Of a stretch of 45,065 nucleotides of DNA, positions 1,165 through 21,206 are shown in pieces. Numbering within the stretch: the stretch's first letter is position 1; the number at the start of each line of letters is the position of its first letter. The position numbers and the translations under genes were made by a program. The notes beneath the pieces were generated by a model. It was not told the origin of the DNA and made no database searches. It worked only from the letters and a program-made list of their open reading frames with translations. Location of the stretch: NCBI GenBank assembly GCA_009842645.1, contig VYFB01000042.1:1-45065 (forward strand). Direction: 5' to 3'. Source of the stretch: Nitrospira sp. SB0677_bin_15 (GTDB lineage Bacteria; Nitrospirota; Nitrospiria; Nitrospirales; UBA8639).

Positions 1165-1200
1165 GTTGTGAATTTGTGAGACTGCCATGCCGACCCTCCT
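1165..1200 (+). pseudogene. Probable remnant of the mod 5' end and leader
   Basis: The sequence GTTGTG-AATTTGTGA-ATGCCGACCCTC resembles the leader and first codons of mod at 4576-4612, where GTTGTG, AATTTGTGA and ATGCCGACTCTT appear in the same order with a few small gaps. The frame from ATG 1187 gives MPTL, as in Mod, and closes after 18 codons. The copy and the real mod start bracket the DUF262 operon. The match is short, so this is a tentative call that gains weight from similar end-copies elsewhere in the island. Confidence 0.42.
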
Positions 1201-1275
1201 CAACAGAATCTTTGATATATACCCACAACATCAATTATCATAAGAGCTCTTTAAAAAAAGGGAAGGGGAATTGAA

Positions 1276-2499
1276 ATGGGCCTGGATTTTGATGTTGGTG
1301 AAATGCCAAAGACTTTCGAAGAACCCTTGGAAGACGTTGAACAAGGAGGTGTTGAGCAGGAAAACGTTGAAGGACCAGAGGCTTCAATCTCTCCCCCTCC
1401 AATCAAAGATCCCTTCGATCCTACAAAAATCAACATCGACACAAAAAACCCTGTCGTTGATCTGATTATAAAAAGAATTTCCCGTGACGAAATCGATTTG
1501 AATCCAGATTTTCAACGTCACGCGGACGTCTGGGGCAGAAAAAGAAAAAGCAGGCTCATCGAATCACTCCTGTTACGCATTCCCATACCGGTCTTCTACA
1601 TGGCGGCGGACGAAGAAGACAAATGGCAAGTCGTCGATGGTCTGCAACGGCTGGATACGTTAAAAACCTTCGTTCTTGACAAAACACTTCGTTTGCGTGG
1701 GCTGGAATACCTGAACCAATTTGAAAACCATTCTTATGACGAACTCCCTCGTCACATGCAGCGACGTATCGACGAAACGCAGCTTTCCTGTCACGTTATT
1801 CAACCCGGCACGCCGAGAGAAGTCATGTTTAATGTTTTTAAACGCATCAATACCGGCGGCAAACCGCTGTCGCTACAGGAAATCCGACATGCCTTAAACC
1901 CCGGAAGAGCAAGGGACCGCATCAACGAATTAGCAATGGACCAAACGTTTTTGGAAGCAACCACCAACAGCGTGAGTACGAAGCGCATGGCTGATCGTGA
2001 ATGCGTACTGCGATTCATCGCATTCCACTTGCAGCCGTTAGATACTTATAAGGGTGATCTGGACGCCTTCCTCGTAAAGGCCATGGATTCCTTGAATAAA
2101 GATGTGAGCGAAAAACAATGGGGTTTACTGAGCTCTGATTTTCGTCGTGCGATGCGATTGGCCACGGCTCTGTTTGGTACCGAGGCCTTCCGCAAGCCAC
2201 CCAAAAAACGTAGAAGTAGGCATAGAGATGCGTTAGCCGACGAACTGGGATTCGTCGACGAACGCAGAAGCCCTATCAACAAGCCCCTGTTTGAAAGCTG
2301 GTCTGTCAATCTGGCGCACTTGGACGAATCTCAAGGCCAACGCCTCATAGAGCAACGAGAAACCGTTCAAAACCATTTCCTGGATCTGATGGGACAAGAT
2401 AAATTCGTGGAAAGTATCAGCATAGGGACTCAATGGGATGAGCAGGTCCGTACTCGCTTTAAAGAGATCGAAACACTCCTCCGTAAGGTATTGGAATGA
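1276..2499 (+). CDS. DUF262 domain protein (ParB/Srx-like)
   Basis: Protein of 407 residues. After an acidic low-complexity start (residues 1-45) it carries a DUF262 domain at about 55-235: the substrate-loop segment NPDFQRHADVWG, the signature VVDGLQRLDTLKTF (about 119-132) and FKRINTGGKPL. DUF262 occurs in GmrS/GmrD, SspE and other phage-restriction proteins, where it has nucleotide-triggered nuclease or regulatory activity. The DGQQR motif of the family is DGLQR here. No DUF1524 HNH nuclease domain follows, so the C-terminal 170 residues are a different partner region. A good ribosome site (GGAAGGGG, 1261-1268) precedes the ATG. The stop overlaps the start of the ATPase gene (ATGA), so the two are translationally coupled. 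Confidence 0.85.
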   Translation: MGLDFDVGEMPKTFEEPLEDVEQGGVEQENVEGPEASISPPPIKDPFDPTKINIDTKNPVVDLIIKRISRDEIDLNPDFQRHADVWGRKRKSRLIESLLLRIPIPVFYMAADEEDKWQVVDGLQRLDTLKTFVLDKTLRLRGLEYLNQFENHSYDELPRHMQRRIDETQLSCHVIQPGTPREVMFNVFKRINTGGKPLSLQEIRHALNPGRARDRINELAMDQTFLEATTNSVSTKRMADRECVLRFIAFHLQPLDTYKGDLDAFLVKAMDSLNKDVSEKQWGLLSSDFRRAMRLATALFGTEAFRKPPKKRRSRHRDALADELGFVDERRSPINKPLFESWSVNLAHLDESQGQRLIEQRETVQNHFLDLMGQDKFVESISIGTQWDEQVRTRFKEIETLLRKVLE

Positions 2500-3608
2500 T
2501 TACTCAAATACGAATGAGAAATTTCAAATGCTTCAAAGAGTACGAGTTGCCACTTGGGGGACTGACTGTTCTGGCCGGTTTGAACGGCACGGGAAAAAGC
2601 AGCGTCATACAGGCACTCTTGTTGCTCCGACAATCCGGTCTTGACGAGAAAGGTTTCCCTAGAGTTTTACGCTGGCAAGGCAAGCTAGTCGACACAGGCT
2701 CGTTCAGAGACGTGCTTTACGAAGGTGCCGAGCAAGACGTCATTGAACTGGAGGCCGAATTCGACAAGATTAAACGAATCAAGATAAGTGTGACGATAGA
2801 CGATTTTCAAACGCCTTCTGCGGGGATCACGAATTCCGAAAGCGTTGAAGACGCCTCACTGTATAGACGATCTATGTACTATCTGAGTGCAGATCGTTTG
2901 GGGCCACAAAAGACGCTGCCATTTTTTGAGCAAGGACATGAATCAAATACGCCCTTGGGCAAGAATGGAGAACATGTGCTCTGGTTTTTGGAAACATACG
3001 GCGGAAAGATAATCTCGGAAAATCTTAGACATGCAGACGCAGATCAAACAACTCTCATTTCCCAGACCAATGCATGGCTCAAGGTTATCAGTCCGGGAGC
3101 CAAGCTCGAAATCACTCCTATGCCTAAAGCGGATGTCGCCCTGGCAGGTTTTGCCTTTTCCAGAGAAAGGGACGTCATGACAAAACCCTTTCGGGCAACT
3201 AACGTCGGATTTGGATTAAGTTATGCTCTGCCTCTGATTGTCGCGTTGCTGGCCGCTCAGAATGACGACTTGGTGATCATCGAGAACCCTGAAGCCCATA
3301 TTCATCCGGGCGGACAGACCCGATTGGCGGAACTCGCAGCAAGGGCTGCTTCAGCAGGGACGCAAGTTATCCTGGAAACTCACAGCGATCACATTCTGGA
3401 CGGGCTGCGCCTGGCGGTTCGTCGTGCCATCATCAGACCGGAAGAGGTTACGCTGCATTACTTTCAACGAAAAGGTTTGGATACCGAAGTCACCACGCCT
3501 GTCATAAGGCCTGATGGCCGATTGGACGTCTGGCCAGAGGGTTTCTTCGATCAGCACGAAAAGAATCTGTCGTCACTCATAGCACACCAACAGGATACCG
3601 GGGTGTGA
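2496..3608 (+). CDS. AAA family ATPase, DUF3696 / SMC-OLD-like
   Basis: Protein of 370 residues. The N-terminus IRMRNFKCFKEYELPL followed by Walker A GLNGTGKSS (about 28-36) is typical of RecF/SMC/OLD-type ATPases. The later half has a signature and Walker B region (VIIENPEAHIHPGGQ, about 258-272) and the H-loop LETHSDHILDGLR. The tail ending near LDVWPEGFFDQHEKNL matches the DUF3696 type. No TOPRIM nuclease domain is present, so any nuclease activity must come from a partner. It overlaps the DUF262 gene by 4 bases and is followed after 1 base by the third gene, which implies a three-component complex. Such ATPases usually act as sensors or motors in anti-phage modules. Confidence 0.88.
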   Translation: MITQIRMRNFKCFKEYELPLGGLTVLAGLNGTGKSSVIQALLLLRQSGLDEKGFPRVLRWQGKLVDTGSFRDVLYEGAEQDVIELEAEFDKIKRIKISVTIDDFQTPSAGITNSESVEDASLYRRSMYYLSADRLGPQKTLPFFEQGHESNTPLGKNGEHVLWFLETYGGKIISENLRHADADQTTLISQTNAWLKVISPGAKLEITPMPKADVALAGFAFSRERDVMTKPFRATNVGFGLSYALPLIVALLAAQNDDLVIIENPEAHIHPGGQTRLAELAARAASAGTQVILETHSDHILDGLRLAVRRAIIRPEEVTLHYFQRKGLDTEVTTPVIRPDGRLDVWPEGFFDQHEKNLSSLIAHQQDTGV

Positions 3609-3609
3609 A

Positions 3610-4551
3610 GTGATCCTGGTATTCAACGAGCTTTCTGCTCACAATCTCGCACCATCACGACATCAGGCAAGAGAACAAACAACAAATTTGGTCCGGGCCG
3701 TGGCAGCAGTAGCGAGCGGACAATCCACTACACTCGTTTCGATTAAGGACTTCGAGATACATCAGGCTCCACTTGCGGAAGATTATACGGTGTACCAATG
3801 GTCACATGATGAAAGAGTCGATCGAGATTTGAGAAATTATTTCTTGAAGATTTCAGCAAAGATGCGTTTCGAACAGGACGTGTCCGAGGCCGTCAAGGAA
3901 CAGTTCTACCTTTCAGAATTCCATTTCCATCAACAAGAAGCAGGAGGCTTGGGGCTTGCATGGTTACTGAAAACGACTGCTGTAAGTCTGCCTTTCGAAG
4001 AATACTGGCTGCGAACCCACATCCCAGTACATCGCAAATGGCTTGAGAACACGGGAATGGAACGGGAAGAAGATGTAAAGGTGCTCAACCTTTCGGAAAT
4101 GAATCACGTTCCAGTTGTTTTCGACGAATTGACTGGAAAATCTCAAGCAGTTCTGAGAGATGAGCCGGTGAAATTAGCGGAAAGGAAAGCTGATTGTTTT
4201 CCACACCTGACGTTCGGGTTGGATGTGGATTCTCAAATAGGTGAACTCTCCGTTGAGATTTTACGCATAACAATAACCAAGTTGATCGTCCTGGACGGAG
4301 CAGTGCGAAATTGGCGACGCGAGAAGACGGAAGAACCAGTATTGCCGAAGGTCAACCCAGAGAGTGAAGCGACCATGCAGCAATACGGAAACGAACGGGA
4401 ATTCCGAAGCGCTAGCGGTGAGAAAAAAGGCTTCAATCTCCACGCCATGATGGGCAGCGGATATCGCATTCACCTTCGAATCGACAAAGAACACAAGAAT
4501 CTGGAAATAGGCTATATTGGGGAACATCTTCCTACGGCAAGATTTCATTAG
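3610..4551 (+). CDS. Unknown third component of the DUF262-ATPase operon
   Basis: Protein of 313 residues with no domain I can name with confidence. It starts at a GTG one base after the ATPase stop, so coupling is near certain. The N-terminus (ILVFNELSAHNLAPSRHQAR) looks like a beta strand followed by a basic helix. A middle FHFHQQEAGGLGLAWLL segment may bind ligand. The C-terminal part HAMMGSGYRIHLRID ... IGYIGEHLPT resembles a compact beta-sheet domain often seen at the end of small defence effectors. There is no membrane segment and no obvious nuclease motif. Its position suggests it is the effector or a specificity subunit, but that is inference only. Confidence 0.7.
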   Translation: MILVFNELSAHNLAPSRHQAREQTTNLVRAVAAVASGQSTTLVSIKDFEIHQAPLAEDYTVYQWSHDERVDRDLRNYFLKISAKMRFEQDVSEAVKEQFYLSEFHFHQQEAGGLGLAWLLKTTAVSLPFEEYWLRTHIPVHRKWLENTGMEREEDVKVLNLSEMNHVPVVFDELTGKSQAVLRDEPVKLAERKADCFPHLTFGLDVDSQIGELSVEILRITITKLIVLDGAVRNWRREKTEEPVLPKVNPESEATMQQYGNEREFRSASGEKKGFNLHAMMGSGYRIHLRIDKEHKNLEIGYIGEHLPTARFH

Positions 4552-4600: not shown

Positions 4601-6235
4601 ATGCCGACTCTTGATTTCAAAGGAAAATCACTCGTTTATTCCCATCACCTGACCGTTCCTTCACGGACACTTGAGACGGACGCCAAAAAATCCCTTCCAC
4701 TGAAGAGCAACAAGTCTTCCCTTGACGACAGTCTGATCATCCACGGCGATAACCTGCACGCACTCAAGGCGCTGATGCCCCGCTATGCCGGCAAGGTCAA
4801 GTGCATCTATATCGACCCGCCCTACAACACCGGCAACGAAGGTTGGATCTACAACGACAACGTGAACAGCCCGATGATGCAGGAGTGGCTGAAAGACAAA
4901 AGCCCGGTGGACGGCGAAGACCTGGAGCGCCATGACAAATGGCTCTGCATGATGTGGCCGCGGCTCCATCTGTTGCGCGAACTACTGGCTGAGGACGGGG
5001 TGATTTTCATTTCCATCGACGATAACGAACAGCACCACTTGCGGATGGTGATGGATGAGATTTTTGGGGAGGAGAATTTTGTCGCATCTATCATTTGGGA
5101 GAAGGTTTACTCACCGAAGAGCAGTGCGAAGTATTTCTCGGAAAATCATGATTTCATCGTCGCGTATGCCAGAAACAAGGAAGAGTTCAGACTCGGATTG
5201 CTCCCACGCACTGAAGAAGCTGACTCGCGTTACGCCAATCCCGACAACGACCATCGTGGACCATGGAAATCCAGCGATCTTTCAGCACGCAATCCATATA
5301 GCAAAGGAACATATTCTATAAAATGCCCAGGTGGGCGTGTGATAAAAGAGCCTCCTCCTGGCAATTTTTGGCGTTACTCGGAAGAGAAATTTTTGGAATT
5401 GGACAGGGACAACAGAATTTGGTGGGGTGAAGATCGGAACCAAGTTCCAGCCATCAAACGATTTCTCTCAGAAGTAAAACAAGGCTTGGTGCCTGAGACA
5501 ATCTGGACGTATAAGGAGGTCGGTCATACTCAAGACGCCAAGAAAACGCTTCTTCAGATTTTTCTAGAAGACTTTCCAGATTTTACGACAACCAAGCCTG
5601 TGGAATTGCTGACCAGAATCATTCGTCTCTCGACAGACAAGGACGCCATCATCCTCGACTCCTTCGCCGGCTCCGGCACGACGGCACATGCGGTTCTCGC
5701 CTTGAACAAGGAAGACGGCGGCAACCGCAAGTTCATCCTGGTGGAATGTGAAGACTATGCCGACGAAATCACCGCCGAGCGCGTCCGCCGTGTCATCAAA
5801 GGCGTGCCGAAGGCCAAGGACGAAACCCTGAAAAACGGGCTGGGCGGCAGCTTTACCTACTGTACGTTAGGCGATGAAATCAGCCCGGAGAAAATGCTCA
5901 CCGGAGAGAACCTGCCGGACTACGAAACCCTGGCCCGTCACCTTGTCTACACCGCCACCGGCCAAGCACCGGACAGAATTCGTAATGCAAAAGACAAAGA
6001 CGGCTTCTTCTACGAAACCGGCGACCGGCTCTTTTATCTGATCTACAAACCCGATCTTGTCTTCCTGCGTAGCGCCGACTCCGCCTTGAACAGTGATCGC
6101 GCCGAACGCATCGCCAAGCAGACCAAGAAAAAGCAGAAAACCGCCCTCGTCTTCGCCACCCACAAATTCATGGGCCAGAAGGAATTGACTGGAATGAAAA
6201 TCACGTTCTGCGGATTGCCGTATGTAAGTTTTTGA
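4601..6235 (+). CDS. mod: Type III restriction-modification DNA methyltransferase (Mod)
   Basis: Protein of 544 residues, the usual length for Mod. The order of motifs is that of beta-class N6-adenine methyltransferases: the catalytic DPPY in YIDPPYNTGNEGW (about 72-75) comes before the SAM-binding FAGSGTT (about 354-360). The middle variable part (about 170-310) would be the target-recognition domain. The C-terminal end FMGQKELTGMKITFCGLPY is typical of Mod proteins. It would methylate one strand of an asymmetric site and supply specificity to Res. Mod and Res are normally adjacent, but here res begins 6.4 kb downstream, with a methylase-kinase operon and toxin-antitoxin debris in between. 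The last 20-odd bases are copied at 11676-11698. The ATG at 4601 is followed by the typical MPTLDFKGK start. Confidence 0.95.
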   Translation: MPTLDFKGKSLVYSHHLTVPSRTLETDAKKSLPLKSNKSSLDDSLIIHGDNLHALKALMPRYAGKVKCIYIDPPYNTGNEGWIYNDNVNSPMMQEWLKDKSPVDGEDLERHDKWLCMMWPRLHLLRELLAEDGVIFISIDDNEQHHLRMVMDEIFGEENFVASIIWEKVYSPKSSAKYFSENHDFIVAYARNKEEFRLGLLPRTEEADSRYANPDNDHRGPWKSSDLSARNPYSKGTYSIKCPGGRVIKEPPPGNFWRYSEEKFLELDRDNRIWWGEDRNQVPAIKRFLSEVKQGLVPETIWTYKEVGHTQDAKKTLLQIFLEDFPDFTTTKPVELLTRIIRLSTDKDAIILDSFAGSGTTAHAVLALNKEDGGNRKFILVECEDYADEITAERVRRVIKGVPKAKDETLKNGLGGSFTYCTLGDEISPEKMLTGENLPDYETLARHLVYTATGQAPDRIRNAKDKDGFFYETGDRLFYLIYKPDLVFLRSADSALNSDRAERIAKQTKKKQKTALVFATHKFMGQKELTGMKITFCGLPYVSF

Positions 6236-6289: not shown

Positions 6290-7426
6290 ATGTACGATAT
6301 TAGAAAATATAACGAAGTAATAGAGGCATCTTCCCCGACCCCATTAAGCTGGGCTGACTCCTGTACGCATCAAGAGTGCTCATTACATCAACTGTCGCCT
6401 TACATAGGAAAATTGAAGAGTGTGATCGCAAAGGACCTCATCCTCAAGTACAGTCAACCCGGTCAGTTGGTGGTGGATATGTTTTGCGGGAGCGGTACCG
6501 TCCCACTTGAAGCCGCCCGTCTTGGTCGACGGATCTTTGCTTCTGATACGAGCCAATACGCGGTGACGCTGACCAAGGGCAAGTTGTACGCACCGACCAG
6601 AATCGAATCCGCACTTGCAGACATCGATCGTCTTCTCAAGCGCGTCGAATCGCTGCCTATGCCTGATCTCCGAAGTGTCCCCCGATGGGTTCGAGCTTTC
6701 TTTCATCCCCGTACATTGAAAGAAATCCTGCGTCTCAGTGAGTTTCTTAGAAACGAACAGCATTATTTCCTACTGGCATCCTTACTCGGCATCCTGCATC
6801 ATCAAAGGCCCGGATTTTTGTCTTATCCAAGCAGTCACCTCGTTCCCTATCTGCGTTCAAATAAGTTTCCAAGAGCAGCTTACCCTGAGCTTTACGAATA
6901 CCGTCCAGTCGCCGTACGCCTCAGAGCGAAAGTTGAACGCGCCCTGAAACGTCCACCGAGAAACTCTTGTCATGGCTTAGTCGATGATATTCGTAAGTCC
7001 GCAGTGGAATCTGTCAATCTTCCCGATGCCATTGATTGCGTCATCACGAGTCCACCCTACATGAACACCCTCGACTATGGGCGCGACAACCGGCTACGAC
7101 TCTGGTTTTTGGGTGAATCGCACATGGAGGCTATGGACCGTGCTCTCAGTGATCTTCTCGGTTTCACAAACGCAATAAAAGCACTTGCCAAACAATTACA
7201 ACAAAAAATGCGCCGGGGCGGTTATTGTATCTTTGTCATTGGGGAACAACTCATTCGAAAGAGAGATCGATTTCCCTCCGAAGAACTGATGAGGATTTTC
7301 GTAACGCACGCCCCAACATTTCGTCTATGTCGGGTTATGAGCGACGTTATTCCTGACGTTCGTCGCTCGCGCAAACGGCTCGCCGGCGTCAAACGAGAGC
7401 ATATTCTGGTATTCAGAAAGCACTGA
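6290..7426 (+). CDS. DNA methyltransferase, SPPY type
   Basis: Protein of 378 residues. A SAM-binding motif (VVDMFCGSGTVPLEAA, about 63-78) precedes the catalytic motif TSPPYMNTLDYGRDNR (about 251-266). The motif order is opposite to that of Mod, and SPPY suggests an N4-cytosine or N6-adenine methylase. The segment between them (about 100-245) would be the recognition region. The C-terminus (VRRSRKRLAGVKREHILVFRK) is a typical last strand of the methylase fold. It begins 54 bases after mod but belongs with the next two genes: its stop is 2 bases from the kinase start. In such a setting a methylase marks self DNA, as PglX does in BREX. That is an analogy, not a family assignment. Confidence 0.85.
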   Translation: MYDIRKYNEVIEASSPTPLSWADSCTHQECSLHQLSPYIGKLKSVIAKDLILKYSQPGQLVVDMFCGSGTVPLEAARLGRRIFASDTSQYAVTLTKGKLYAPTRIESALADIDRLLKRVESLPMPDLRSVPRWVRAFFHPRTLKEILRLSEFLRNEQHYFLLASLLGILHHQRPGFLSYPSSHLVPYLRSNKFPRAAYPELYEYRPVAVRLRAKVERALKRPPRNSCHGLVDDIRKSAVESVNLPDAIDCVITSPPYMNTLDYGRDNRLRLWFLGESHMEAMDRALSDLLGFTNAIKALAKQLQQKMRRGGYCIFVIGEQLIRKRDRFPSEELMRIFVTHAPTFRLCRVMSDVIPDVRRSRKRLAGVKREHILVFRKH

Positions 7427-7428
7427 GC

Positions 7429-10918: not shown

Positions 10919-11043
10919 ACGCCGATTAGTCCTAACATGTTGTCGCGTTTCACGCGACGTTTGCCACAGACATTTTTCCATCTAGCCCCGAGCCAAGAAC
11001 GCATCAAAAATTTTCATACAGAGCAGATGAGTTGAAAGACAAC

Positions 11044-11076: not shown

Positions 11077-11082
11077 CCGACT

Positions 11083-12698: not shown

Positions 12699-15230
12699 AT
12701 GCACTTGAAAACCTACCAACAAAACGCCCTTGAGCAGTTGGACCGCTGGCTTGGGGCGCTTAAAGAGGCGCATAAAGACGCGGCGGACGGCGTAGAGTTT
12801 TACGCGAAAAAGAAAAGACCTATTCCCGAAGAATTGAAAAACTATCCCCTCTCCGCTTGGAACAGCTTGAAAGAGCAGAACGTTCTCCCTGGCATTTCGG
12901 ACAACGGAACTCTTACAATCCCCGACTACATTTCCCGAACCGGAACGTCCGGTGCGCCCATCCCGCACGTCTGCTTGAAGGTGCCGACCGGGGGTGGGAA
13001 GACCCTTTTGGGCGTTACCGCGCTTGAGCGTATCAAGCAGGACGTGGGCTTCGTGTTGTGGATCGTGCCTACCAGGGCGATCTACGAACAGACGCTCAAG
13101 GCTTTCAGGACCCGCGAGCATCCGTACAGGCAGATGCTTGAGAGAATTTCCGGCGGCAAAGTCAAACTGTTGCAGAAGGACGACCGCTTCACCCGGCAGG
13201 ACGTCGAAAGCCGGCTCTGCATCATGACGCTGATGCTGCCGTCTGCCAACAGACAAAAAGGGAGGGACTTCCTCAAGATATTTCGTGACAGCGGGAGCTA
13301 CACTTCGTTTTTTCCAGAACAGGACGATCCAACCGCCAACCGCGCACTTTCAGAACGGCACCCGGACCTTGAGAAGAACAACACCGCCGGCTCGGCGAAG
13401 CACAGCCTGATCAACGTGCTGAAATTGATCCGCCCCACGGTCATTCTGGATGAAGCACACAAGGCATACGGGCCAAACGACAAGAACAATCGTGAGTTCG
13501 TCAAGTCCGTCAATCAACTCAATCCCCGCTTTGTGCTCGAACTGTCCGCCACGCCCAAAATCGGCATTAGCAACATCCTGGTCAACATATCGGGAACCGA
13601 GTTGCAGGCCGAGGAAATGATCAAGCTGCCGATAGAGATTCACAGCTTCGGCAACTCGGACTGGAAACACACGCTTGCCGAAACCCAGCGGAAATTACAG
13701 GAACTGGAAACCGAAGCGCAGAGACTGCAAACACGGGAAAACCGCTATATCCGTCCAATCGCCCTGGTCAGGGTCCAGCGGACGGGCGGAGAACAACGGG
13801 GCAGAGGAACCATCCATTCGGAGGACGTGCGGGAGCATCTGATCCAACAGCTTGCCGTGCCGCAAGACCGGATCAGGGTGCAATCGTCGGAACAGAAGGA
13901 ACTCACGGGCGAGGACCTGCTTGGCGAAACAAGCCCCGTCCGCTGGATTATCACCAAGGACGCCCTCAAGGAAGGCTGGGACTGCGCGTTTGCCTACGTG
14001 CTGGCTTTATTGGACGACACCACGGCAACCACGGCCATGACTCAGATGACCGGACGGATCATGCGACAGCCTCACGCGCGCAGAATTGAGCAAAGCGAAG
14101 CCCTGAACAGGTGCTATATTTATTGTTACAACACGAACGTGGGCGTAGCCGTCGAAAGGGTCAAGGCCGGGCTGGAAAACGAGGGGCTGACCGGGCTTGG
14201 CAATACCATTAGAGGCGCTGGTGAAGGAGACGCACCGCAACCACAAACCATCAAGCGCCGTCCAAAATATAAAAGACTTCAGATCTTTCTCCCGCAGGTT
14301 CTGCACGAAGAAGGGTACAGGTGGCGTCCGCTTGATTACGACCGCGACATCCTGGGAGCAATCAATTGGAGCGAAATCGACGTGGGCGAGGCGGTGAATC
14401 CGGACGACGATGACACGATTCGGGAGATCATCGCGACAGTTGACGTTCAGGGGGATAGACGTATCTTCGATGAGGCCCTTGAAACCGGCGAACGGTTGAG
14501 CCTTGATTATTTCGTCCGGCGGCTGACGGACGTAGTGCCCAACCCGTGGCAGGCTGCACGAATGACAGCGAACTTCCTCAAAAAGCATACGGGATACGAC
14601 GATTCAAAACTGTTGAATAACCGGATTTATCTCTCGGAGGTTTTGCGCCGGAGCATCAAGGAAGACCTGGACAAGAAAGCCGAGTCGGTTTTTCGCAGCA
14701 AGATCAAAAACGATGCGATCAGGTTTCACCTCGAGACCGACGAGAAGTTGGATTATGAACTGGAGAAATCGCTTGAGGTTTACGTGTCCAGTCAGGAAAG
14801 AGCGCTTCAGGGTGAACACGGACTGCCGATACAACAGAGTCTGTTCGATCCCGTGCATGAAAGCAACTTCAATGGACTCGAAAAGGATTTCGCGCTGTAT
14901 CTGGACAAGAGCAACGCTATCTCCTGGTGGCACAAGATCGCTGCAAAACAGCAGTATCATCTCCAAGGATGGAGACGGCAGCGGGTCTATCCGGATTTCG
15001 TCGCCTGTCAGCGGGGGGATGGAAGGCTTCTGATCCTCGAAACCAAAGGCATTCATCTGAAGGGGAACGAGGATACGAATTACAAGCAGCAACTGCTTGC
15101 AACCCTCGAAGCAGCATACAACAAAGCCGATGACAGGGGCGAAATGAGAGTCTGCGAACCACCCGCTGTTTTCAGGATGATGTTTGAGGATCGCTGGAAA
15201 GAACAGGCCAACGCGCTTGTTGCGGAATAG
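12699..15230 (+). CDS. res: Type III restriction enzyme subunit (Res)
   Basis: Protein of 843 residues. Superfamily 2 helicase motifs: Walker A VPTGGGKTLLG (about 94-104), motif II ILDEAHKAYG (about 249-258), motif III ELSATPKIG, and motif VI in MTQMTGRIMRQPHARR (about 448-463). The C-terminal nuclease of PD-(D/E)xK type is intact: YPDFVACQRGDGRLLILETK (about 763-782) has PD and ExK. With Mod it would cut after translocating between head-to-head unmethylated sites. Both ends of this gene are duplicated nearby: 5' copies at 11591 and 12505, and the last 100 bases at 21107-21206. The ATG at 12699 is chosen by family length and the MHLKTYQQ start. Confidence 0.95.
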   Translation: MHLKTYQQNALEQLDRWLGALKEAHKDAADGVEFYAKKKRPIPEELKNYPLSAWNSLKEQNVLPGISDNGTLTIPDYISRTGTSGAPIPHVCLKVPTGGGKTLLGVTALERIKQDVGFVLWIVPTRAIYEQTLKAFRTREHPYRQMLERISGGKVKLLQKDDRFTRQDVESRLCIMTLMLPSANRQKGRDFLKIFRDSGSYTSFFPEQDDPTANRALSERHPDLEKNNTAGSAKHSLINVLKLIRPTVILDEAHKAYGPNDKNNREFVKSVNQLNPRFVLELSATPKIGISNILVNISGTELQAEEMIKLPIEIHSFGNSDWKHTLAETQRKLQELETEAQRLQTRENRYIRPIALVRVQRTGGEQRGRGTIHSEDVREHLIQQLAVPQDRIRVQSSEQKELTGEDLLGETSPVRWIITKDALKEGWDCAFAYVLALLDDTTATTAMTQMTGRIMRQPHARRIEQSEALNRCYIYCYNTNVGVAVERVKAGLENEGLTGLGNTIRGAGEGDAPQPQTIKRRPKYKRLQIFLPQVLHEEGYRWRPLDYDRDILGAINWSEIDVGEAVNPDDDDTIREIIATVDVQGDRRIFDEALETGERLSLDYFVRRLTDVVPNPWQAARMTANFLKKHTGYDDSKLLNNRIYLSEVLRRSIKEDLDKKAESVFRSKIKNDAIRFHLETDEKLDYELEKSLEVYVSSQERALQGEHGLPIQQSLFDPVHESNFNGLEKDFALYLDKSNAISWWHKIAAKQQYHLQGWRRQRVYPDFVACQRGDGRLLILETKGIHLKGNEDTNYKQQLLATLEAAYNKADDRGEMRVCEPPAVFRMMFEDRWKEQANALVAE
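15131..15230 (+). repeat. 100-bp direct repeat, left copy (res 3' end)
   Basis: The last 100 bases of res, ending exactly at its TAG stop, recur at 21107-21206 with two differences. The two copies bracket the FGE / sulfotransferase / P450 block. Sequence similarity stops at the stop codon on the right and near TGACAGGG on the left. Confidence 0.95.
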
Positions 15231-15246: not shown

Positions 15247-16440
15247 TTACTTTAGGTCTCGGGCAACGCGGAAGCCCGAAACGCTTGTTGCGCTTTTGGC
15301 AAGCCTTGGGGTGCGTATCGCCGATCGATTCCCCTCCGCCCCGTAGAACCAGCCTCCCCCTCGCGCCACGCGCAAGAAGCACAAGCCGGACTCCCATGCG
15401 CTTCCATCCGTGGGACCTCCCGAGTAATCGGAGTTAAAGCAATCCTGCGTCCATTCGCCGGCGTTTCCGATCATGTCATGCAGCCCGAACGAGTTCGGTT
15501 GAAAGGAGCCCGCGGGCGCGGTCCCCGCGAACCCGTCATCGCAGGGAATGATCGCGTCTAATTGAAAATCGAAGTTATGGAAGGCGTTGTCCGTTTTGTC
15601 ATACACGCTGGCGAACTCGCAGAAATCATCCTCCGGTCTCCAGTAGTTGACGGTCGTCGACCCGGCGCGCGCCGCATATTCCCATTCCGCTTCGCTCAGC
15701 AGCCGATAGCGCTTTCCCGTCAGGTCGGATAGCCATTGCGTGTACAATTGGGCGGCGTGCCAGCTAATATTGAGTACGGGACGCCGTCCCCGGCCGAAGC
15801 CCTCATCGTCCGGTTTCAGTCCACCGCATCCGTCCATGCGAACGCAGCTTTCCCATTCCTCGTGGGTCACCTCGAAAACCCCGACCGCGAATGGCGCCGG
15901 AATCGTCACCTCCCGCTGCGGACCCTCGCTCGAATGGCGGTGGGGTTCCGATTCCGGAGATCCCATGATGAATGTCCCGGCCGGGATCACAGTCATTCTG
16001 GGCGCGACGTCGCAATCCTGAAAAACGCCGCCCGGCTTGATCTCTCCGGCTGATTTCGGATCGCATTCGGCGACCCATTCAGCATCGCTTAACGATACAT
16101 ATCCTTGAATGGCTGGCCCCTCCCGCTGTGTCAAATCCACGAGATACCAGGCCTCTAATTCCCGCAAGACCCGAAGCGGGACACCCGCGGGAACCGTCGC
16201 GACCAGTCTGCTATTCGGATCCGCGGCTTCTCTCACCGGCCCCTGGCGCGCGACCATCCGCAACTCCAACGCATCCGCCGTCCGGGGCGCGGCGAAGTCG
16301 GCAAACAGGGCCACGACGAAGACCAGGAAGGCGGCCCCTCCTGGGAAACGACCATGGCCACGGTCTTCCCCTGCTTCATGGGTTGACGCCCCGGCCTTGG
16401 TGGCCGGAAGCCCTTGCAACGGAAAAGCCTCGAAATCCAT
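15247..16440 (-). CDS. SH3-domain + FGE-sulfatase (SUMF1) fold protein 1
   Basis: Protein of 397 residues. A hydrophobic stretch (AAFLVFVVALFADFAA, about 35-50) acts as signal or anchor. A bacterial SH3 domain follows (GPVREAADPNSRLVATVPAG then VPLRVL), then a FGE-sulfatase/SUMF1 domain (VIPAGTFIMGSPESE ... RYRLLSEAEWEYAARAGSTT ... MIGNAGEWTQDCFNSDYSGG ... RVARGGGWF ... GFRVARD). The cysteines that make formylglycine in true FGE (C-x-x-x-x-C after the RGGSW motif) are absent: here GGGWFYGAEGNRSAIRTPR. It is therefore probably a structural or other oxidative member rather than a sulfatase activator. It starts 3 bases after the stop of the next, paralogous gene, with which it forms an operon read leftward. 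Confidence 0.85.
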   Translation of the reverse strand: MDFEAFPLQGLPATKAGASTHEAGEDRGHGRFPGGAAFLVFVVALFADFAAPRTADALELRMVARQGPVREAADPNSRLVATVPAGVPLRVLRELEAWYLVDLTQREGPAIQGYVSLSDAEWVAECDPKSAGEIKPGGVFQDCDVAPRMTVIPAGTFIMGSPESEPHRHSSEGPQREVTIPAPFAVGVFEVTHEEWESCVRMDGCGGLKPDDEGFGRGRRPVLNISWHAAQLYTQWLSDLTGKRYRLLSEAEWEYAARAGSTTVNYWRPEDDFCEFASVYDKTDNAFHNFDFQLDAIIPCDDGFAGTAPAGSFQPNSFGLHDMIGNAGEWTQDCFNSDYSGGPTDGSAWESGLCFLRVARGGGWFYGAEGNRSAIRTPRLAKSATSVSGFRVARDLK

Positions 16441-16443
16441 CGT

Positions 16444-17679
16444 TCAATCCAACCGTCGGGCGACGCGCAGCCCCAGACTGCTGTAGCTGCTGTTCAGGGT
16501 TCTTTTGGTGCGCGCGGCCGTCCGATTTTTCTGAAGACTATAGGCCCATGCGCCACCGCGCGAGATGCGGAAGCGACAATCGCCTGTCTCCCAGGCGCTC
16601 CCGTCCGTCGGGCCGCCGAGATAATCGGCGTTGTAGCAATCCTGCGTCCATTCGCTGACGTTTCCGATCATGTCGTACAGACCGAACGCGTTCGGCGAGA
16701 AGGATCCGACGACGGCACCGGCCGGATATCCGTCCGAGCACGGAATGGTCGAGCCGACCGCGTCCACAACGTCGGGAACCAGCTTCAGTGCCGTCAGATC
16801 AAGACCGTTCAGATGCTCGCAATACGACGAGTCCGACCCGGAGCCGGGCCGGGGCGCCGTCGTGCCGGCCCGGGCGGCATACTCCCATTCCGCTTCGCTC
16901 AGCAACCTGTAACGTTTGCCGGTTATCGCGGACAGCCATCGCACGTATTTCCGCGCCTGCGGCCAGTCTATGTTCATCACGGGATAGTTCCCGCGTCCAA
17001 GACCGAGATCGTGCGGCTCTTTCGGACCGCATCCCCCCGTCCTCTGGCAGGCGTCCCATTGCTCGAAGGTTACCTCATAAACGCCCGCCGCGAACGGAGT
17101 GGTGATCTCGACCTTTCGCTGGGGGCCCTCATCGGGCAACCGGTATTCTTCCGAGGCCGGCGACCCCATCATGAAGCTTCCCGCGGGCACGACGATCATT
17201 TCCGGCGCCGCCGCGCAATCCCGAAACCGGTCTCCCGGTCCCAGGTCAATCATTTCCGCAGGAACGCAGTTAGCGGCCCATTCGACATCGCTAACGGATA
17301 CATAGCCTTTCCGAAATGAAGGCCCGTCCGCATCCTCGCGCGGTTCAACGAGATACCAGGCCCGCTTTTCCGAAAGGGGGCGAAGGGTCGTGCCTGCCGG
17401 CACGGTCGAGACGATCGCGCCGTTCGGGTTCGGAACCTCCCTTATCGCACCCGGGTCGGCGCGCATGCGCAGGACGATCATGTTCGAACTCAGCGGATCT
17501 GGTTGTCGCAACCGGAACGTAGATTGCAGAACGAAAAGTTCCTTGATCGTGAACTTGGACAGAAAACTGGCGGTCTGATGGATCGACGAAAAATTTGTCA
17601 GAATACCATACGCTAACAGAGCCCCGGCCACGGTGCCGACGATTCCCACGATCCGCCTCCAGGACTTGAGGACAACCAT
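16444..17679 (-). CDS. SH3-domain + FGE-sulfatase (SUMF1) fold protein 2
   Basis: Protein of 411 residues, a paralogue of the gene it precedes, with the same layout: N-terminal membrane helix (IVGIVGTVAGALLAYGILT, about 10-28), SH3 region (DPGAIREVPNPNGAIVSTVP then AGTTLRPL) and FGE-type domain (VPAGSFMMGSPASEEYRLPD ... RYRLLSEAEWEYAARAGTTA ... MIGNVSEWTQDCYNADYLGG ... ISRGGAWAYSLQKNRTAART). The FGE active-site cysteines are again missing. Two adjacent diverged copies suggest a tandem duplication followed by specialisation. The gene is divergent from the sulfotransferase gene, with a 166-base shared upstream region. Confidence 0.85.
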   Translation of the reverse strand: MVVLKSWRRIVGIVGTVAGALLAYGILTNFSSIHQTASFLSKFTIKELFVLQSTFRLRQPDPLSSNMIVLRMRADPGAIREVPNPNGAIVSTVPAGTTLRPLSEKRAWYLVEPREDADGPSFRKGYVSVSDVEWAANCVPAEMIDLGPGDRFRDCAAAPEMIVVPAGSFMMGSPASEEYRLPDEGPQRKVEITTPFAAGVYEVTFEQWDACQRTGGCGPKEPHDLGLGRGNYPVMNIDWPQARKYVRWLSAITGKRYRLLSEAEWEYAARAGTTAPRPGSGSDSSYCEHLNGLDLTALKLVPDVVDAVGSTIPCSDGYPAGAVVGSFSPNAFGLYDMIGNVSEWTQDCYNADYLGGPTDGSAWETGDCRFRISRGGAWAYSLQKNRTAARTKRTLNSSYSSLGLRVARRLD

Positions 17680-17845
17680 CGCTTCACCCCCCCGCCCTTG
17701 TCCGATTACGGTTGACCGTCTGAGCTTTGCGTTTCTGTAACATGCCCTCTCCTTTCGCCATTCGTCTTGCAGATTATTGCATGTCCTTCAGGAAAGAATG
17801 TCAATTATTTTTTGCAGATTGTACCCGTGAGATCGGAATAACATA

Positions 17846-18982
17846 ATGAGCAAGTGGATGCGTTGGACACTGGCAACTCGGAGTAGTATAGTCATTTCTA
17901 CCTTCTCGACGGCGGCAACTTCCGCCATGGACTCAGCCCGGAGTTGGTTCGTGAACGAAATTCCTCCTGTATTCGTATTCAGCACCGGACGGTGCGGGTC
18001 CACGATGATCTCGGAGATGCTGAACATGCATCCGGATATCCTCAGCATATCCGAGTTTTTTTCGGCTCTCGGTCCGAACGCATTCGCCGGGAAGAAGATT
18101 ACAGGCGAGTTCATGTGGCGCCTGTACAGTGAGCCCGGAAAGAGGTTGGCTATTGTCAGACGGGAATCCTTTAGCGAATTGCTTTATCCCTTCGACGACC
18201 CCGGAGCGCGCTTCGACGCCGCCACGCTGCCGCCCATCATGGCAGTATCGCTGCCTCATCTCACGAATCGCTACGAAGAACTCTACGATGAGATAGAGAA
18301 GATCGTTCGCGCACAACCCAAGGCGTTCCCCAACGACCATTACCGGACACTGTTCAACTGGCTGGGGGAACGCTTCGAAAGGAAATTGTGGGTGGAGCGT
18401 CACGGCGGCTCCCTCCTGATGGCTTCCCGGCTGCTGCGCCACTTTCCCGAAGCGCGGGTCGTTCATATGTTCCGGGACGGGCGCGAAACGACATTGTCGA
18501 TGAGTAACCACCCGCCCTTCCGAGTTATGCTTGCGCTGATGCGGAGAGCCAGACGCTGGGGCATCGACGCCTACCGATTACTGGAAAGGCTCGAACGCAG
18601 TGACCGGTTAACCAGCATGATAGACACGTTGCAATGGCTGCTGTCGGATATTGACAGCCTGCTATCGGAGCCCCCGACGCTACCCGAGGCTGGCGAATTC
18701 TGGAGCAACATGATAGAAACGGGCTACCGGGTGTTCGGCCACTTCGGGCCAGACCGGCTGCTTGAGTTGCGATTTGAGGAAATGCAAGAAAATCCGGAAG
18801 GCGAGGCGCGCCGCCTCATCGAATTCATCTCGCCGGAGTTGGAGAGCGAGGCTTGGATTTCTGAAGTGGCTCGGCTTCCCCGCCGGACCCCGTCAAAATT
18901 CGCGCGGCTCGCCCCCGATGCACAGCGTGCCGTTACCGAGGCGTGCCGTCCGGGACTGGAGCGACTCGGTTATGCGGTCTGA
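17846..18982 (+). CDS. PAPS-dependent sulfotransferase family protein
   Basis: Protein of 378 residues. The 5'-phosphosulfate loop VFVFSTGRCGSTMISEML (about 43-60) and the 3'-phosphate motif ARVVHMFRDGRETTLSMSNH (about 205-224) define the sulfotransferase fold. The remainder (helical, with the acidic RLLELRFEEMQENPEGE segment) matches the Sulfotransfer_3 type that sulfates small molecules or glycans. No signal peptide is convincing, so the protein is probably cytoplasmic. The gene is followed after 73 bases by the GPP34-P450 fusion and is divergent from the FGE-like pair. A later ATG at 17930 is an alternative start. Confidence 0.88.
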   Translation: MSKWMRWTLATRSSIVISTFSTAATSAMDSARSWFVNEIPPVFVFSTGRCGSTMISEMLNMHPDILSISEFFSALGPNAFAGKKITGEFMWRLYSEPGKRLAIVRRESFSELLYPFDDPGARFDAATLPPIMAVSLPHLTNRYEELYDEIEKIVRAQPKAFPNDHYRTLFNWLGERFERKLWVERHGGSLLMASRLLRHFPEARVVHMFRDGRETTLSMSNHPPFRVMLALMRRARRWGIDAYRLLERLERSDRLTSMIDTLQWLLSDIDSLLSEPPTLPEAGEFWSNMIETGYRVFGHFGPDRLLELRFEEMQENPEGEARRLIEFISPELESEAWISEVARLPRRTPSKFARLAPDAQRAVTEACRPGLERLGYAV

Positions 18983-19055
18983 ACGACGGAGTTGCCGGAC
19001 TTGCGGAATTGCAGCTCGATAATGCGGTGAAAACCTTGCACGCAGTGAAAGAGGC

Positions 19056-21095
19056 ATGATGAAGGCGGAAATATTGGTTGACCGTCCCTTGACGCTTGCC
19101 GAAGAACTTCATGTCCTGTTGCTGGACCGGCAGGGGGGCGGCCTCATCGATGCCGACGACCGCAAGATCAGATATGCCTTTGCCGGCGCGGGGCTGATGA
19201 ATCTGGCGAGGGAACGGCGCATCGATACCGACCTCGAAAATCTGACGGTGCTCGATTCGACCCCGCTGGGAGACGACATCCTCGATCCCTTGCTCGCGGC
19301 TATTTCAGGGGGCGAAAATACCGACATCGTGTACTGGATCGAGCGTTTCTCCGGTCCGGAAATCGCCAACCGGATACGGCGTCGCGCTGGCGAGCGCCTG
19401 ATCCACAGGGGCATCTTCAACATCGACCCGGGCGGGACGCTCTTTCTTGACAAGCAGGTGAGCTTGACACGCCGCTACCCCGGCATCCCCTTGCCCGAGG
19501 GTCAGGATGTGGTCCTGCGGGTGATGAACGTTATCTTCAGCGAAGACATTCCGAGTCCGGATGAGGCTATGCTCGTCGCGTTGGTCGATGTCTGCGGGAT
19601 CTTCGGGCACATTCTCGCGAAGCCGGAGCTTGCGGAGAGGCGCGACCGCATCGCCTTGGTAAGCCGTCTGGATCTCATCGGACTATCGGTTCGTAACGCG
19701 ATTCTCGCCGTCCGGGAGCCGGATGCCAAAGACCGGACATTACACAGGATTTTCCAGGAGTCGGCTGCCGGGGGCCGCCGCAAATGTCCTCCTATGGCAC
19801 CTATGGGGCTCCCCCTGATCGGACACTCGCTACGCTTGCGACCGTTTCCGACCCAAACACTTGCCGACTATTACCGCTCCCTGGGGCCGATCTTCAGAAT
19901 CCGCGACCTGGCGAGCACATTGACTGTTCTGGCAGGGCCGGAGGCCAATCTTTTCCTTCAGAAACGCGGGCGGGCGTTGCTTCGCAGTCATAAGGCCTAC
20001 ACGCCGCTTTTCGAGGGAATGGACGCCCAGCGCATCATCCTGAGCATGGACGGTGAGGAGCATTTCAGCCTCCGCAGGGCGATCTCTTCCGGCTTCTCGC
20101 GCGACCGGTACCTGAACAGGCTGCCGGAGATCCGGGATATCATTCTCAGCAAGTTTCCGGAGAACGGAAATGCGGTTGCCATCGACACCTTCAGTCACCT
20201 TACGGCCAAGTCGATCGGACTGGCGTGTACCAATTATGTCCTGTCCAACAGTGAGGTCAAGGACATGGACTTCTTCCTGCGTCGCCTGATCGCGGTGACG
20301 GTGCTGCGCGCGCTGCCGAAATTCATGATGTACACCCCTCGCATGAAGCGGGCGAAGGCCGGGTTTTTCGATATTTTCACCAACATACTGCGCGCACGGC
20401 TGGATGACGGAACCGACCAAGGCAAAGAGGACGTGGTGGATGCGATGCTCGAACTGCACCGGTCCAACCCTCAATTTTTGCCCGAACAAGAACTCAGGGT
20501 ATCTTGTCTGGGGCCGATCTTTTCCGGCCTGCACACCACCGCCAGCACCGGAACCTTTGCCCTGTATCTGTTACTCAAACATCCCGGGTGCTTGGAACGG
20601 GTTCGGGTCGAGGCAGATGAGCTTTATGCGAACGGGGGGCCAACCCCCGAGAAAATGAAAGCCTTGGACGTTACCCGACGAACCGTGTTCGAAACCCTGC
20701 GGATATACAATCCCTTCGGGTTCCTTTTCCGGCACGCGGTCAATAGCTTTGATTTCGGCGGCTACACCATACCGGCCGGTACCGCGCTTTTCCTGCCGAC
20801 TTCCGTGCCGCACTACTGCCCGGAATTTTTCCGGGAGCCGGACCGCTTCGACATCGATCGCTACTTGCCGGAACGGGCCGAACACAGTCAGCCCGGCGTT
20901 TATATGCCCTTCGGCTTCGGTACCCACCGCTGCCTGGGCAGCACCATCGCCGAAAACCATCTGATGTTCACGCTCGCGACGATCCTGCATCACCGGAATG
21001 TCAGCATGGACCCTCCCGATTATAAGATGAAGATGATTTTCGACGGCGTACCCGCGCCGACAAGAAAGTTAAGGCTCAAACTCACACCAAGGTAA
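19056..21095 (+). CDS. GPP34 (GOLPH3-like) - cytochrome P450 fusion
   Basis: Protein of 679 residues. Residues about 8-215 form a GPP34 domain: LTLAEELHVLLLDRQGGGLI, AFAGAGLMNLARERRI, LTVLDSTPLGDDILDPLL and a domain-ending ALVDVCGIFGHILAKPE. GPP34 is the fold of GOLPH3/Vps74, a phosphoinositide- and membrane-binding protein, and is found in some bacteria. Residues about 245-679 form a P450: I-helix FSGLHTTAST (about 489-498, with His where most P450s have an acid, as in CYP51), ExxR as FETLR (E546-R549), and the haem loop PFGFGTHRCLG (Cys626). No redox domain is attached. The N-terminal domain could hold the enzyme at the membrane. The ATG at 19056 follows AAAGAGG. A second ATG is next to it. 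Confidence 0.88.
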   Translation: MMKAEILVDRPLTLAEELHVLLLDRQGGGLIDADDRKIRYAFAGAGLMNLARERRIDTDLENLTVLDSTPLGDDILDPLLAAISGGENTDIVYWIERFSGPEIANRIRRRAGERLIHRGIFNIDPGGTLFLDKQVSLTRRYPGIPLPEGQDVVLRVMNVIFSEDIPSPDEAMLVALVDVCGIFGHILAKPELAERRDRIALVSRLDLIGLSVRNAILAVREPDAKDRTLHRIFQESAAGGRRKCPPMAPMGLPLIGHSLRLRPFPTQTLADYYRSLGPIFRIRDLASTLTVLAGPEANLFLQKRGRALLRSHKAYTPLFEGMDAQRIILSMDGEEHFSLRRAISSGFSRDRYLNRLPEIRDIILSKFPENGNAVAIDTFSHLTAKSIGLACTNYVLSNSEVKDMDFFLRRLIAVTVLRALPKFMMYTPRMKRAKAGFFDIFTNILRARLDDGTDQGKEDVVDAMLELHRSNPQFLPEQELRVSCLGPIFSGLHTTASTGTFALYLLLKHPGCLERVRVEADELYANGGPTPEKMKALDVTRRTVFETLRIYNPFGFLFRHAVNSFDFGGYTIPAGTALFLPTSVPHYCPEFFREPDRFDIDRYLPERAEHSQPGVYMPFGFGTHRCLGSTIAENHLMFTLATILHHRNVSMDPPDYKMKMIFDGVPAPTRKLRLKLTPR

Positions 21096-21106
21096 CAGAA
21101 ACCGGG

Positions 21107-21206
21107 TGACAGGGTCGAAATGAGAGTCTGCGAACCACCCGCTGTTTTCAGGATGATGTTTGAGGATCGTTGGAAAGAACAGGCCAACGCGCTTGTTGCG
21201 GAATAG
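21107..21206 (+). pseudogene. Detached copy of the res 3' end (right 100-bp direct repeat)
   Basis: Differs from 15131-15230 at two of 100 positions and ends at the same TAG. It begins 11 bases after the P450 stop. It encodes the last 32 residues of Res, has no start of its own and is not expected to be functional. The DUF1640 copy 2 leader starts shortly after it. Confidence 0.95.

Follow-up and report, generated by a model that had tools for sequence, protein, structure and literature searches.

To our knowledge, the growth of defence islands has mostly been described as gene clustering, with few readable steps. In integron cassette arrays, cassettes are stacked at a fixed place and older ones are pushed outward, and Rhs C-terminal displacement—unlike the mod-res scars described below—involves 3' ends only, within one toxin family. 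The immunity-gene arrays of the Vibrio cholerae T6SS are attributed to serial effector displacement (Kirchberger 2017, PMC5361080), and the portion of that paper drawn on here discusses integron cassette arrays beside displacement arrays. Insertion of RM units with long, variable target duplication has likewise been described (Nobusato 2000 and Furuta 2010, as cited in the part of PMC3031569 used here).

Here, we analysed a stretch of 45,065 nt from Nitrospira sp. SB0677_bin_15 (contig VYFB01000042.1, assembly GCA_009842645.1), hereafter the window, which is labelled G000 in comparisons. A type III RM pair, mod and res, often stands at one chromosomal site; its alleles carry different defence or toxin-antitoxin cargo, with broken mod or res ends—mostly those of other alleles—beside the cargo. 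A literature search for mod-res loci that hold cargo between the two genes found nothing of the kind, which is not proof of absence, and a search on defence in sponge Nitrospira gave no result.

Gene content and gene-end repeats of the window

Models for both subunits identify mod and res of the window as a predicted type III RM pair (Table 1); against the NCBIfam type III model, the window Res scores 25 of 564 bits, far under the cut-off. NsnA, NsnB and NsnC are three consecutive collinear genes, and we take the operon to be a Menshen-like system. An NCBIfam scan of the HicB-like gene itself returned no match. In agreement with the sequence-only reading, which saw no integrase, neither an integrase nor a transposase was found among 20 window proteins scanned in Pfam, and no recombinase appeared among 10 cargo proteins scanned from relatives. 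By inspection, the cassette borders have no common core and consist of four different gene ends with lengths of 24-201 nt. Integrase-type cassettes were rejected on these two grounds.

Table 1. Annotated features of the window (coordinates in nt)
Feature	Position	Strand	Basis and remarks
CCDC90-like gene + short mod 3' relic	668..1023	+	left member of outer direct repeat; Pfam CCDC90-like E=4e-8
mod 5' scar	1165..1198	+	promoter end + first 12 nt of other mod allele
Menshen-like defence operon NsnA, NsnB, NsnC	1276..4551	+	PADLOC E=3.9e-135, 4.3e-112, 2.7e-64
mod, type III methyltransferase	4601..6235	+	PADLOC MTase_III E=4.9e-187; Pfam N6_N4_Mtase E=5.8e-42; mosaic of alleles
methylase, kinase/ORC-CDC6-like, CARF-like operon	6290..10918	+	Pfam; PADLOC CARF6 families
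weak res 5' relic behind methylase-kinase operon	11040..11081	+	profile E=0.049
HicB-like gene, G001-type DNA	11270..11542	+	94-96% to G001; Pfam HicB-like match on homologous G006b stretch
res5'-mod3' chimaera	11591..11701	+	~75 nt res start joined to 32 nt mod end
AbrB-like gene + PIN toxin	11792..12405	+	PIN E=3.4e-15 (Pfam); AbrB-like named by inspection, no family match
~30-nt res 5' relic fused in frame to small ORF, presumably antitoxin-like	12505..12652	+	0/200 shuffles
res, type III restriction subunit	12699..15230	+	PADLOC REase_III E=4.7e-213; Pfam ResIII
FGE, FGE, sulfotransferase, GPP34-P450 block	15247..21095	not assigned (.)	Pfam; G+C 57-63%
res 3' scar	21099..21207	+	98/101 to own res end
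second CCDC90-like copy + mod 3' relic	21260..21766	+	mod positions 1421-1575; mod profile E=4.6e-7
DruA, unnamed 405-aa gene, HerA cargo block	21908..26054	+	DruA E=6.6e-60 (Pfam); HerA-like (Pfam, PADLOC)
DUF3047 gene, right chromosomal flank	26066..26878	+	relatives' gene order

The sequence-only reading had proposed second copies of the mod 5', mod 3', res 5' and res 3' ends; all of them exist, with some coordinates shifted on measurement. The mod 3' copies, which it placed at 6213 and 11676, form a real pair measured at 6201-6224 and 11670-11693 (23/24 nt). The mod 5' copies begin at 4577 and 1165 (the scar matching the window's own mod at 36/56), the res 5' copies span 12700-12772 and 11592-11664 (81% over 73 nt and 88% over the best 57 nt), a further res 5' copy at 12505-12535 agrees in 20/22 nt of its best core, and the res 3' copies span 15123-15231 and 21099-21207 (95% over 109 nt). 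The list of pairs had omitted a weaker third res 5' relic at about 11040-11081 and a longer outer pair, composed of the CCDC90-like gene and a mod 3' relic (668-1023 versus 21260-21652, 81% over 393 nt), which emerged from a self-comparison of the window and 13 further loci, leaving out the short loci L084 and L086 and the genus-locus duplicates L068-L072, L076 and L079. The right-hand mod 3' relic of this outer pair lies at 21613-21766, and its G011b counterpart reaches E=2.8e-13. The pairs do not, however, make four independent brackets: the copies that begin at 11591 (res 5') and 11670 (mod 3') belong to one chimaera, so that the four pairs interleave.

In 200 dinucleotide shuffles of the 22 kb, the observed score was never reached for mod 3', for res 5' at 11591 and 12505, or for res 3', and once for mod 5', which is borderline from the window alone. 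The 11040-11081 relic, whose score was reached by 59/200 shuffles and is at chance level alone, is collinear with the point where intact res begins in G007, a locus with the same cargo. A motif common to the two mod 5' copies gave 2 matches only, a result reached by 4/100 shuffles.

At loci with an intact gene, 14/14 secondary profile matches at E<0.1 fell near a gene end, no further in than 199 nt from the start or 240 nt from the end of mod or res. Left out of this count, with E of at least 0.1, were an end match in G006a (1601-1630, E=0.34) and middle matches in G010 res (1582-1619), Binatia res (2128-2205, minus strand) and G008:C112 mod (791-934); so were a Gam2 res match inside a PIN ORF (9-148, E=0.1), the Gam1 and Gam2 mod pieces cut by a contig edge and, at loci with no intact mod, the pieces of G012 (1-139, 254-289, 1521-1637) and G013 (126-417). 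The three middle matches are weaker (E 0.32-0.81), and the G013 mod fragment (E=1.5e-21) touches neither gene end. The profile search found no relics in the G007, G009 and G008 loci.

Related loci within and outside the genus

Nine orthologous res loci were found in the genus, at 71-90% aa to the window res, and together with the window they make up the ten close res loci considered here; G038, from another genus of the family, stands outside this count. Alignment of these loci supported the proposal of a mod-res scaffold whose modules enter or leave at gene ends via recombination between alleles, in that mod and res are kept while the cargo changes at the gene borders—in three slots, namely before mod, between mod and res, and after res. 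A DUF3047 gene adjoins 7/10 loci, four of which also have a conserved pair of genes on the opposite flank; the description as one site therefore holds for seven of the ten by the right flank and for four by both. The site with both flanks conserved is empty or nearly empty in G002 and G004. DUF3047 follows directly behind res in G001, G006b, G007, G010 and G011a, and in G011b it follows a DruA block, res there being succeeded by CCDC-DruA genes. The DUF3047 flank is absent at G009, G008 and G006a, and the left flank of G010 lies about 113 kb away.

The individual modules are distributed unevenly. Of the ten close res loci, only the window, G006b and G011b carry the Menshen operon, and close copies of it (93-95% aa for NsnB) occur only in G006:C40 and G011:C46 among 14 genus genomes. 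The methylase-kinase operon sits directly between mod and res in G007, with the kinase frame split, and in no other of the 10 relatives aligned, and the PIN toxin-antitoxin pair stands directly behind mod in G011a and G011b (95-97% aa to the window). In DNA alignment, the DruA-HerA block is 90-99% identical to G011b and 75-94% to G012, and in G008 it stands at the site without mod-res; the CCDC-mod3' unit lies just upstream of mod in G001 and is also found in G011b. For the FGE block, no DNA match was found in the 10 relatives aligned, and a search for its origin gave, as the best other P450 relatives in the genus, proteins 30-34% identical in aa. The res 3' duplication occurs in the window alone among the 14 genus genomes. 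Two alleles of the MAG G011 share 97.4% DNA identity over 3.7 kb including res, but their mods are only 75% identical in aa.

G012 retains its cargo and a mod with the middle deleted, with no res, and in G003 a single mod relic remains. Gene-end sequences without a mod-res locus, named beforehand as a case against the scaffold, do occur in these two genomes; the pieces there can, however, be recognised as what is left of mod, and they stand at that same chromosomal site, in keeping with loss of the scaffold. Outside the genus, a 201-nt mod start in Spongiihabitans (162/201 to its own mod) stands in front of DarT and an intact mod. A locus in Binatia holds a res 5' relic between two cassettes, as well as a 581-bp insert flanked on each side by an identical 39-nt copy of the res start (39/39), with 28-nt inverted ends that are 86% complementary.

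Allelic origin of the scars and how they may have formed

Judged by alignment, three of the four scar kinds—mod 5', mod 3' and, by its flank, the main res 5'—match other alleles and not the present genes, res 3' being the exception. The mod 5' scar agrees at 47/52 with the G011a mod start and at 43/52 with that of G007; in G011a, the sequence upstream of the scar runs straight into an intact mod, and the scar joint recurs in the G011b locus. The mod 3' scar fits the G011a and G001 alleles better than the window's own mod. The chimaera (res 1-75, E=2.3e-15; mod 1601-1632, E=0.0044) is preceded by sequence 48/50 identical to G001, and its mod part and downstream sequence are 63/75 identical to G011a, whereas within the main res 5' scar the res stretch itself does not separate the alleles (own 59, G001 60 and G006b 62 of 75). 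The same joint is present in G006a and, decayed, in G011a, and the fusion of res 5' relic and ORF at 12505 in G001, G006b, G011a and G011b. The res 3' scar is closest to the present res (other alleles 84-92 of 101), with downstream sequence at 65/82 to G011b versus 43/88 to its own. The scaffold proposal is thereby refined as to the origin of the ends, and scars as simple copies of the present genes were rejected.

In alignment, the mod-res interval of the window breaks up into successive stretches resembling G007, G001 and G011a, with the chimaera linking them. A mosaic signal of homologous exchange inside the anchor genes passed a Bonferroni-level permutation test in 13/28 triplets for mod and 11/36 for res, figures that may be inflated, as divergence along mod is very uneven. 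At the joint between mod 5' scar and Menshen operon, only a short imperfect match exists between the two parent-like sequences, and microhomology there is only suggestive.

In our view, the best explanation, and on balance a probable one, is serial displacement, in which alleles recombine homologously on one side and an illegitimate joint closes the other. A plain double-crossover exchange would leave no scar, so one joint per event would have to be illegitimate or between unlike positions. Incoming DNA of another allele would pair with the resident mod or res body as homologous anchor, and an illegitimate joint, falling close to where the resident gene ends, would seal its cargo-bearing side; the incoming copy would complete the gene, adding cargo and leaving behind the outer end of the displaced gene. 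Repeated events could stack cassettes, ordinary homologous exchange could then swap them between alleles, joints included, and internal deletion could later remove the RM genes while leaving their ends.

Several observations count against serial displacement. No donor-recipient pair or intermediate was seen, and the direction of each event is deduced. In two contexts, beside mod 3' and beside HicB, the res 5' relics stop at the same place (about nt 75); random joints would not predict this, and shared descent is assumed. All scars are short, where random joints should leave long ones too. The gene-middle matches, the G013 middle fragment and the relic-free G007, G009 and G008 loci point the same way.

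An unlikely alternative is that the complete mod-cargo-res unit was duplicated in tandem, through unequal crossing-over or integration of a circle, and that later deletions took out the middles of the genes and spared their outer ends. The res5'-then-mod3' order would be the natural product of a deletion across the unit border, the CCDC-mod3' unit lies on both sides of the window's island, and G012 has a mod without its middle. However, no tandem intact pair was seen: the two close res copies in G006 and in G011 are on separate contigs, and both G011 copies run into DUF3047 and therefore look like strain alleles. Moreover, with three scar kinds matching other alleles, the tandem partners would themselves have had to be different alleles. 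Less probable again is that a mobile element or an unknown recombinase aiming at gene ends inserted the cargo and duplicated a long target, for which the long, variable target duplications reported for RM insertions (in the part of PMC3031569 used here) offer a precedent. Direct copies of one target bounding an insert are seen for the FGE block, between two near-identical 101-nt res ends (98/101), and for the Binatia insert with its inverted ends; as the res 3' scar is closest to the window's own res, that event could be a plain insertion with duplication. The other window scars, which trace to different alleles, do not fit. The 20 window and 10 cargo proteins scanned include no recombinase, and by inspection the four ends lack a common core and vary in length.

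Retention of the relics for function, for example as a 36-37 residue Res-Mod fusion peptide modulating the enzyme, is very improbable. Both in the window and in G006a, the chimaera has an uninterrupted reading frame in phase with the stop of mod, but over the first 25 codons the relics of these two loci differ by 0 silent and 10 replacement changes, compared with 202 silent and 195 replacement changes among intact res starts (all pairs)—one relic pair being a small sample—and the G011a copy is decayed. The functional peptide was rejected, with no constraint on codons. Chance similarity or an assembly artefact is scarcely credible. The mod 5' and 11040 relics are weak alone, the window is one contig of an assembly that has 156, and among the 14 genus genomes the res 3' duplication was found in that one alone; yet the mod 5' joint, the chimaera and the CCDC-mod3' unit each recur in at least one other locus, and four of six tested pairs were reached by 0/200 shuffles and a fifth by 1. 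Chance was rejected on the shuffles, except for those two relics taken alone.

If serial displacement holds, the role of restriction genes would go beyond defence: being diverse in alleles yet conserved in sequence, they would serve as docking arms for other defence systems. As a tentative wider proposal, type III RM genes might form a recombinase-free gene-capture platform in bacteria of several phyla, with conserved mod and res bodies as homology arms, at whose gene borders anti-phage and toxin-antitoxin modules could be added, stacked and traded; gene-end relics would be its readable record, and sometimes the sole remains after RM loss. The growth steps would then be written in the sequence, the relics telling which allele was displaced and where, and within one genus the site can be seen empty, filled in part, full and in decay.

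Comparison with known systems

The nearest parallel lies in the Vibrio T6SS arrays which, in the portion of PMC5361080 drawn on here, combine a homologous anchor with a proposed homology-facilitated illegitimate joint; displaced pieces persist (3' pieces in Vibrio), the arrays later spread by ordinary homologous recombination, and no integrase is known. Vibrio displaces the toxin gene and keeps the immunity gene, whereas here both RM genes act as anchors, two genes contribute scars from their 5' as well as their 3' ends, and the cargo consists of other defence or toxin-antitoxin modules. Rhs C-terminal displacement, named in the same portion, similarly leaves a series of orphaned ends trailing an intact gene. 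RM target-duplication insertions also link RM genes to long direct repeats, but there, according to the part of PMC3031569 used here, the RM unit inserts, while here it is pieces of the RM genes that are repeated, and the genes inserting around them are others. The stacking of cassettes at a fixed place recalls integron arrays, from which the locus differs in having no integrase among the scanned proteins and no attC-like common core seen. Finally, PADLOC models recognise mod, res and each of the three Nsn proteins, in keeping with type III RM and Menshen; the departure from type III RM is that mod and res are split by changing cargo in the cargo-bearing relatives examined.

Repeated ends of the mod and res genes

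We found the repeated ends of mod and res claimed in the sequence-only reading to be present in the window, most of them scoring above shuffled sequence (see table). That reading had treated the mod3' and res5' copies between the two genes as separate features; both copies do exist, but the copies at 11591 (res5') and 11670 (mod3') proved to be one piece, a chimaera in which a res start is joined to a mod end.

Features of the window
Feature	Position (nt)	Remarks
Short repeat	1-55	also forms the terminus of contig C74 in the same genome; second, shortened copy in C74 at 96%
Outermost direct repeat	668-1023 and 21260-21652	CCDC90-like gene, then mod3' relic; right-hand relic extends to 21766
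mod	4601-6235	strong PADLOC type III match
Methylase-kinase-CARF operon	6290-10918	methylase, kinase fused to ORC-CDC6-like ATPase, CARF-like protein
Weak res5' relic	11040-11081	
res5'-mod3' chimaera	11591-11701	
res	12699-15230	strong PADLOC type III match
FGE block	15247-21095	FGE-FGE-sulfotransferase-(GPP34-P450); higher G+C
DruA block	21908-26054	DruA, 405-aa protein without Pfam or NCBIfam match, HerA-like ATPase
Several direct repeats, 40-113 nt	42210-43517	far right, outside the mod-res island

A search for res in 97 genomes gave some match at E<=0.001 in 21, and close matches (71-90% aa) at nine loci in seven other genomes, all of the window's genus: G001, G010, G006a (C42), G006b (C40), G007, G011a (C3), G011b (C46), G009 and G008; the window brings the close res loci to ten. 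Using DNA profiles built from nine mods and ten res genes, we counted secondary matches of E<0.1 in loci with an intact gene: all 14 (seven mod, seven res) lay no further than 199 nt from the gene start or 240 nt from its end, several being common by descent and therefore not independent events. Evidence against a restriction to ends came from three matches of E 0.32-0.81 in gene middles and from a G013 fragment (126-417) that reaches neither end, in a locus without an intact mod.

Of these ten loci, seven carry at least one relic (the window's genome G000, G001, G010, G006a, G006b, G011a and G011b), and none was found in G007, G009 or G008. Self-comparison of 13 further loci, which include a distant second RM locus of G009, revealed mod or res end copies in two. 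In Spongiihabitans (Gammaproteobacteria), 201 nt of mod start are followed by a DarT-macro gene and then an intact mod. In a Binatia locus, a res5' relic separates a 231-aa gene from a putative HicA/HicB-like pair. The pattern is thus frequent in the genus and sporadic elsewhere in the sample. At L073 9358-10016, the same Binatia locus also holds a 581-bp insert whose inverted ends (28 nt) are 86% complementary and which is enclosed by two perfect 39-nt copies, in direct orientation, of the res start region; it resembles a small non-autonomous element whose target duplication is unusually long.

Cargo variation and the origin of the scars

Alignment of the window with stretches of the nine close loci and of G038, a member of a different genus in the family (47% aa), bore out the proposal that cargo changes around the pair, with variation at three slots. 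Before mod, the Menshen operon occurs in only three of ten loci (G000, G006b, G011b). Between mod and res, G007 carries a methylase-kinase-CARF operon; G011a, G011b, G010 and G006b have PIN toxin-antitoxin DNA immediately 3' of mod; G001 has interrupted HicB-like DNA; G006a has ParE, a weak HEPN match and a TPR gene; and TPR genes also occur in G006b and G011. Downstream of res, the immediate neighbour is DUF3047 in G001, G006b, G007, G010 and G011a, while G011b shows CCDC, DruA, an unnamed gene and HerA, and the window its FGE-sulfotransferase-P450 block. Much of the cargo that family scans recognised belongs to defence or toxin-antitoxin classes. Exceptions are the latter block, the CCDC90-like gene, the TPR genes and, with weak matches only, a 177-aa protein of G010.

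The window's methylase-kinase-CARF operon, common to G007 alone among the aligned relatives, gave partial PADLOC matches (CARF6 STK_AAA). The DruA block, which recurs in G011b, G012 and G008, may be a separate defence system. Additionally, a HicB-like start joined in frame to a TPR-DUF2971 protein in the mod-res slot of G006b (24145-26058; L076 8085-9998) is a further gene-level chimaera.

Three scars match foreign alleles. The mod5' scar agrees with the mod start contexts of G011a (47/52) and G007 (43/52) against 36/56 for its own mod, and the mod3' scar, taken together with what lies downstream, agrees with G011a (63/75) and G001 (62/76) against 43/77. For the main res5' scar, the 50 nt upstream match G001 at 48/50 and the own sequence at 22/50, the res part being non-discriminating (own 59, G001 60, G006b 62 of 75). 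Sliding identity resolves the mod-res interval into a chain of a G007-like methylase-kinase operon, G001-like HicB and res5', and G011a-like mod3' and PIN pair. G011b shares the mod5'-Menshen joint, and G006b has Menshen with another left flank and no scar.

The chromosomal site

A conserved adjacent gene pair (radical-SAM-like by inspection) is found in all 14 genus genomes and a strong DUF3047 match in 13. These flanks enclose mod-res in G001, G006b and G011b and probably also in the window, since contig C74 includes the conserved pair and has as its terminal sequence the first 55 bases of the window, a repeat, which places the contig break just left of the island. The right flank alone is visible within the contigs of G007 and G011a; it is also present in G010, with the conserved pair ~113 kb distant, and DUF3047 is not adjacent to the loci of G009, G008 and G006a. 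Flanks without mod-res lie 77 bp (G002), 207 bp (G004) and ~1.1 kb (G005) apart, with no mod or res match at E<0.1 between them. The site in G008 holds the DruA block by itself. Decay to gene ends is seen in G003, where a mod 3' relic remains (E=7.9e-10), and G012 keeps a mod without its middle, an AbrB-like gene, a HicB-like gene and the DruA block, with no res match anywhere in its genome.

Proposed recombination between alleles, and its alternatives

Both mod and res look mosaic in a permutation test that uneven divergence may inflate; in the two G011 alleles, the res-bearing stretch is 97.4% identical in DNA and the mods 75% in aa. The most likely explanation for cargo beside scars is one-sided homologous pairing combined with an illegitimate joint. 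One side of an incoming allele would pair with the resident mod or res gene, and its other, cargo-bearing side would be sealed by illegitimate joining close to where the resident gene ends, leaving cargo adjoining the displaced gene end of another allele. The changing cargo, the three scars matching foreign alleles, the mosaic genes and the decay to gene ends are what the comparison shows; we infer the one-sided event, its direction and the reason why joints would fall so near the ends. The chimaera joint is identical in G006a and, decayed, in G011a, with different cargo behind it; tandem duplication of units followed by deletion would account for the order within the chimaera equally well, and we consider it a rather unlikely origin of the arrangement as a whole.

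The res3' scar is closest to the window's own res end (98/101, other alleles 84-92), and the sequence downstream of it to G011b (65/82, own 43/88). Insertion with target duplication may apply to the FGE block, for which none of the 10 aligned loci has a DNA relative. Its GPP34 domain and cytochrome P450 lie within a single protein of 679 aa; 11 of the 14 genus genomes, the window's own included, encode relatives at 30-34% identity.

Overall, the behaviour of the locus is that of a defence island founded on an RM pair. Our searches of open-licence papers turned up no description of one-sided pairing with an illegitimate joint being used on restriction genes, at four gene ends and with cross-phylum parallels. 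The kind of process is already known from toxin arrays: a study of Vibrio T6SS immunity arrays (PMC5361080) proposes pairing on one side and an illegitimate joint on the other, like the scheme suggested here for mod-res.
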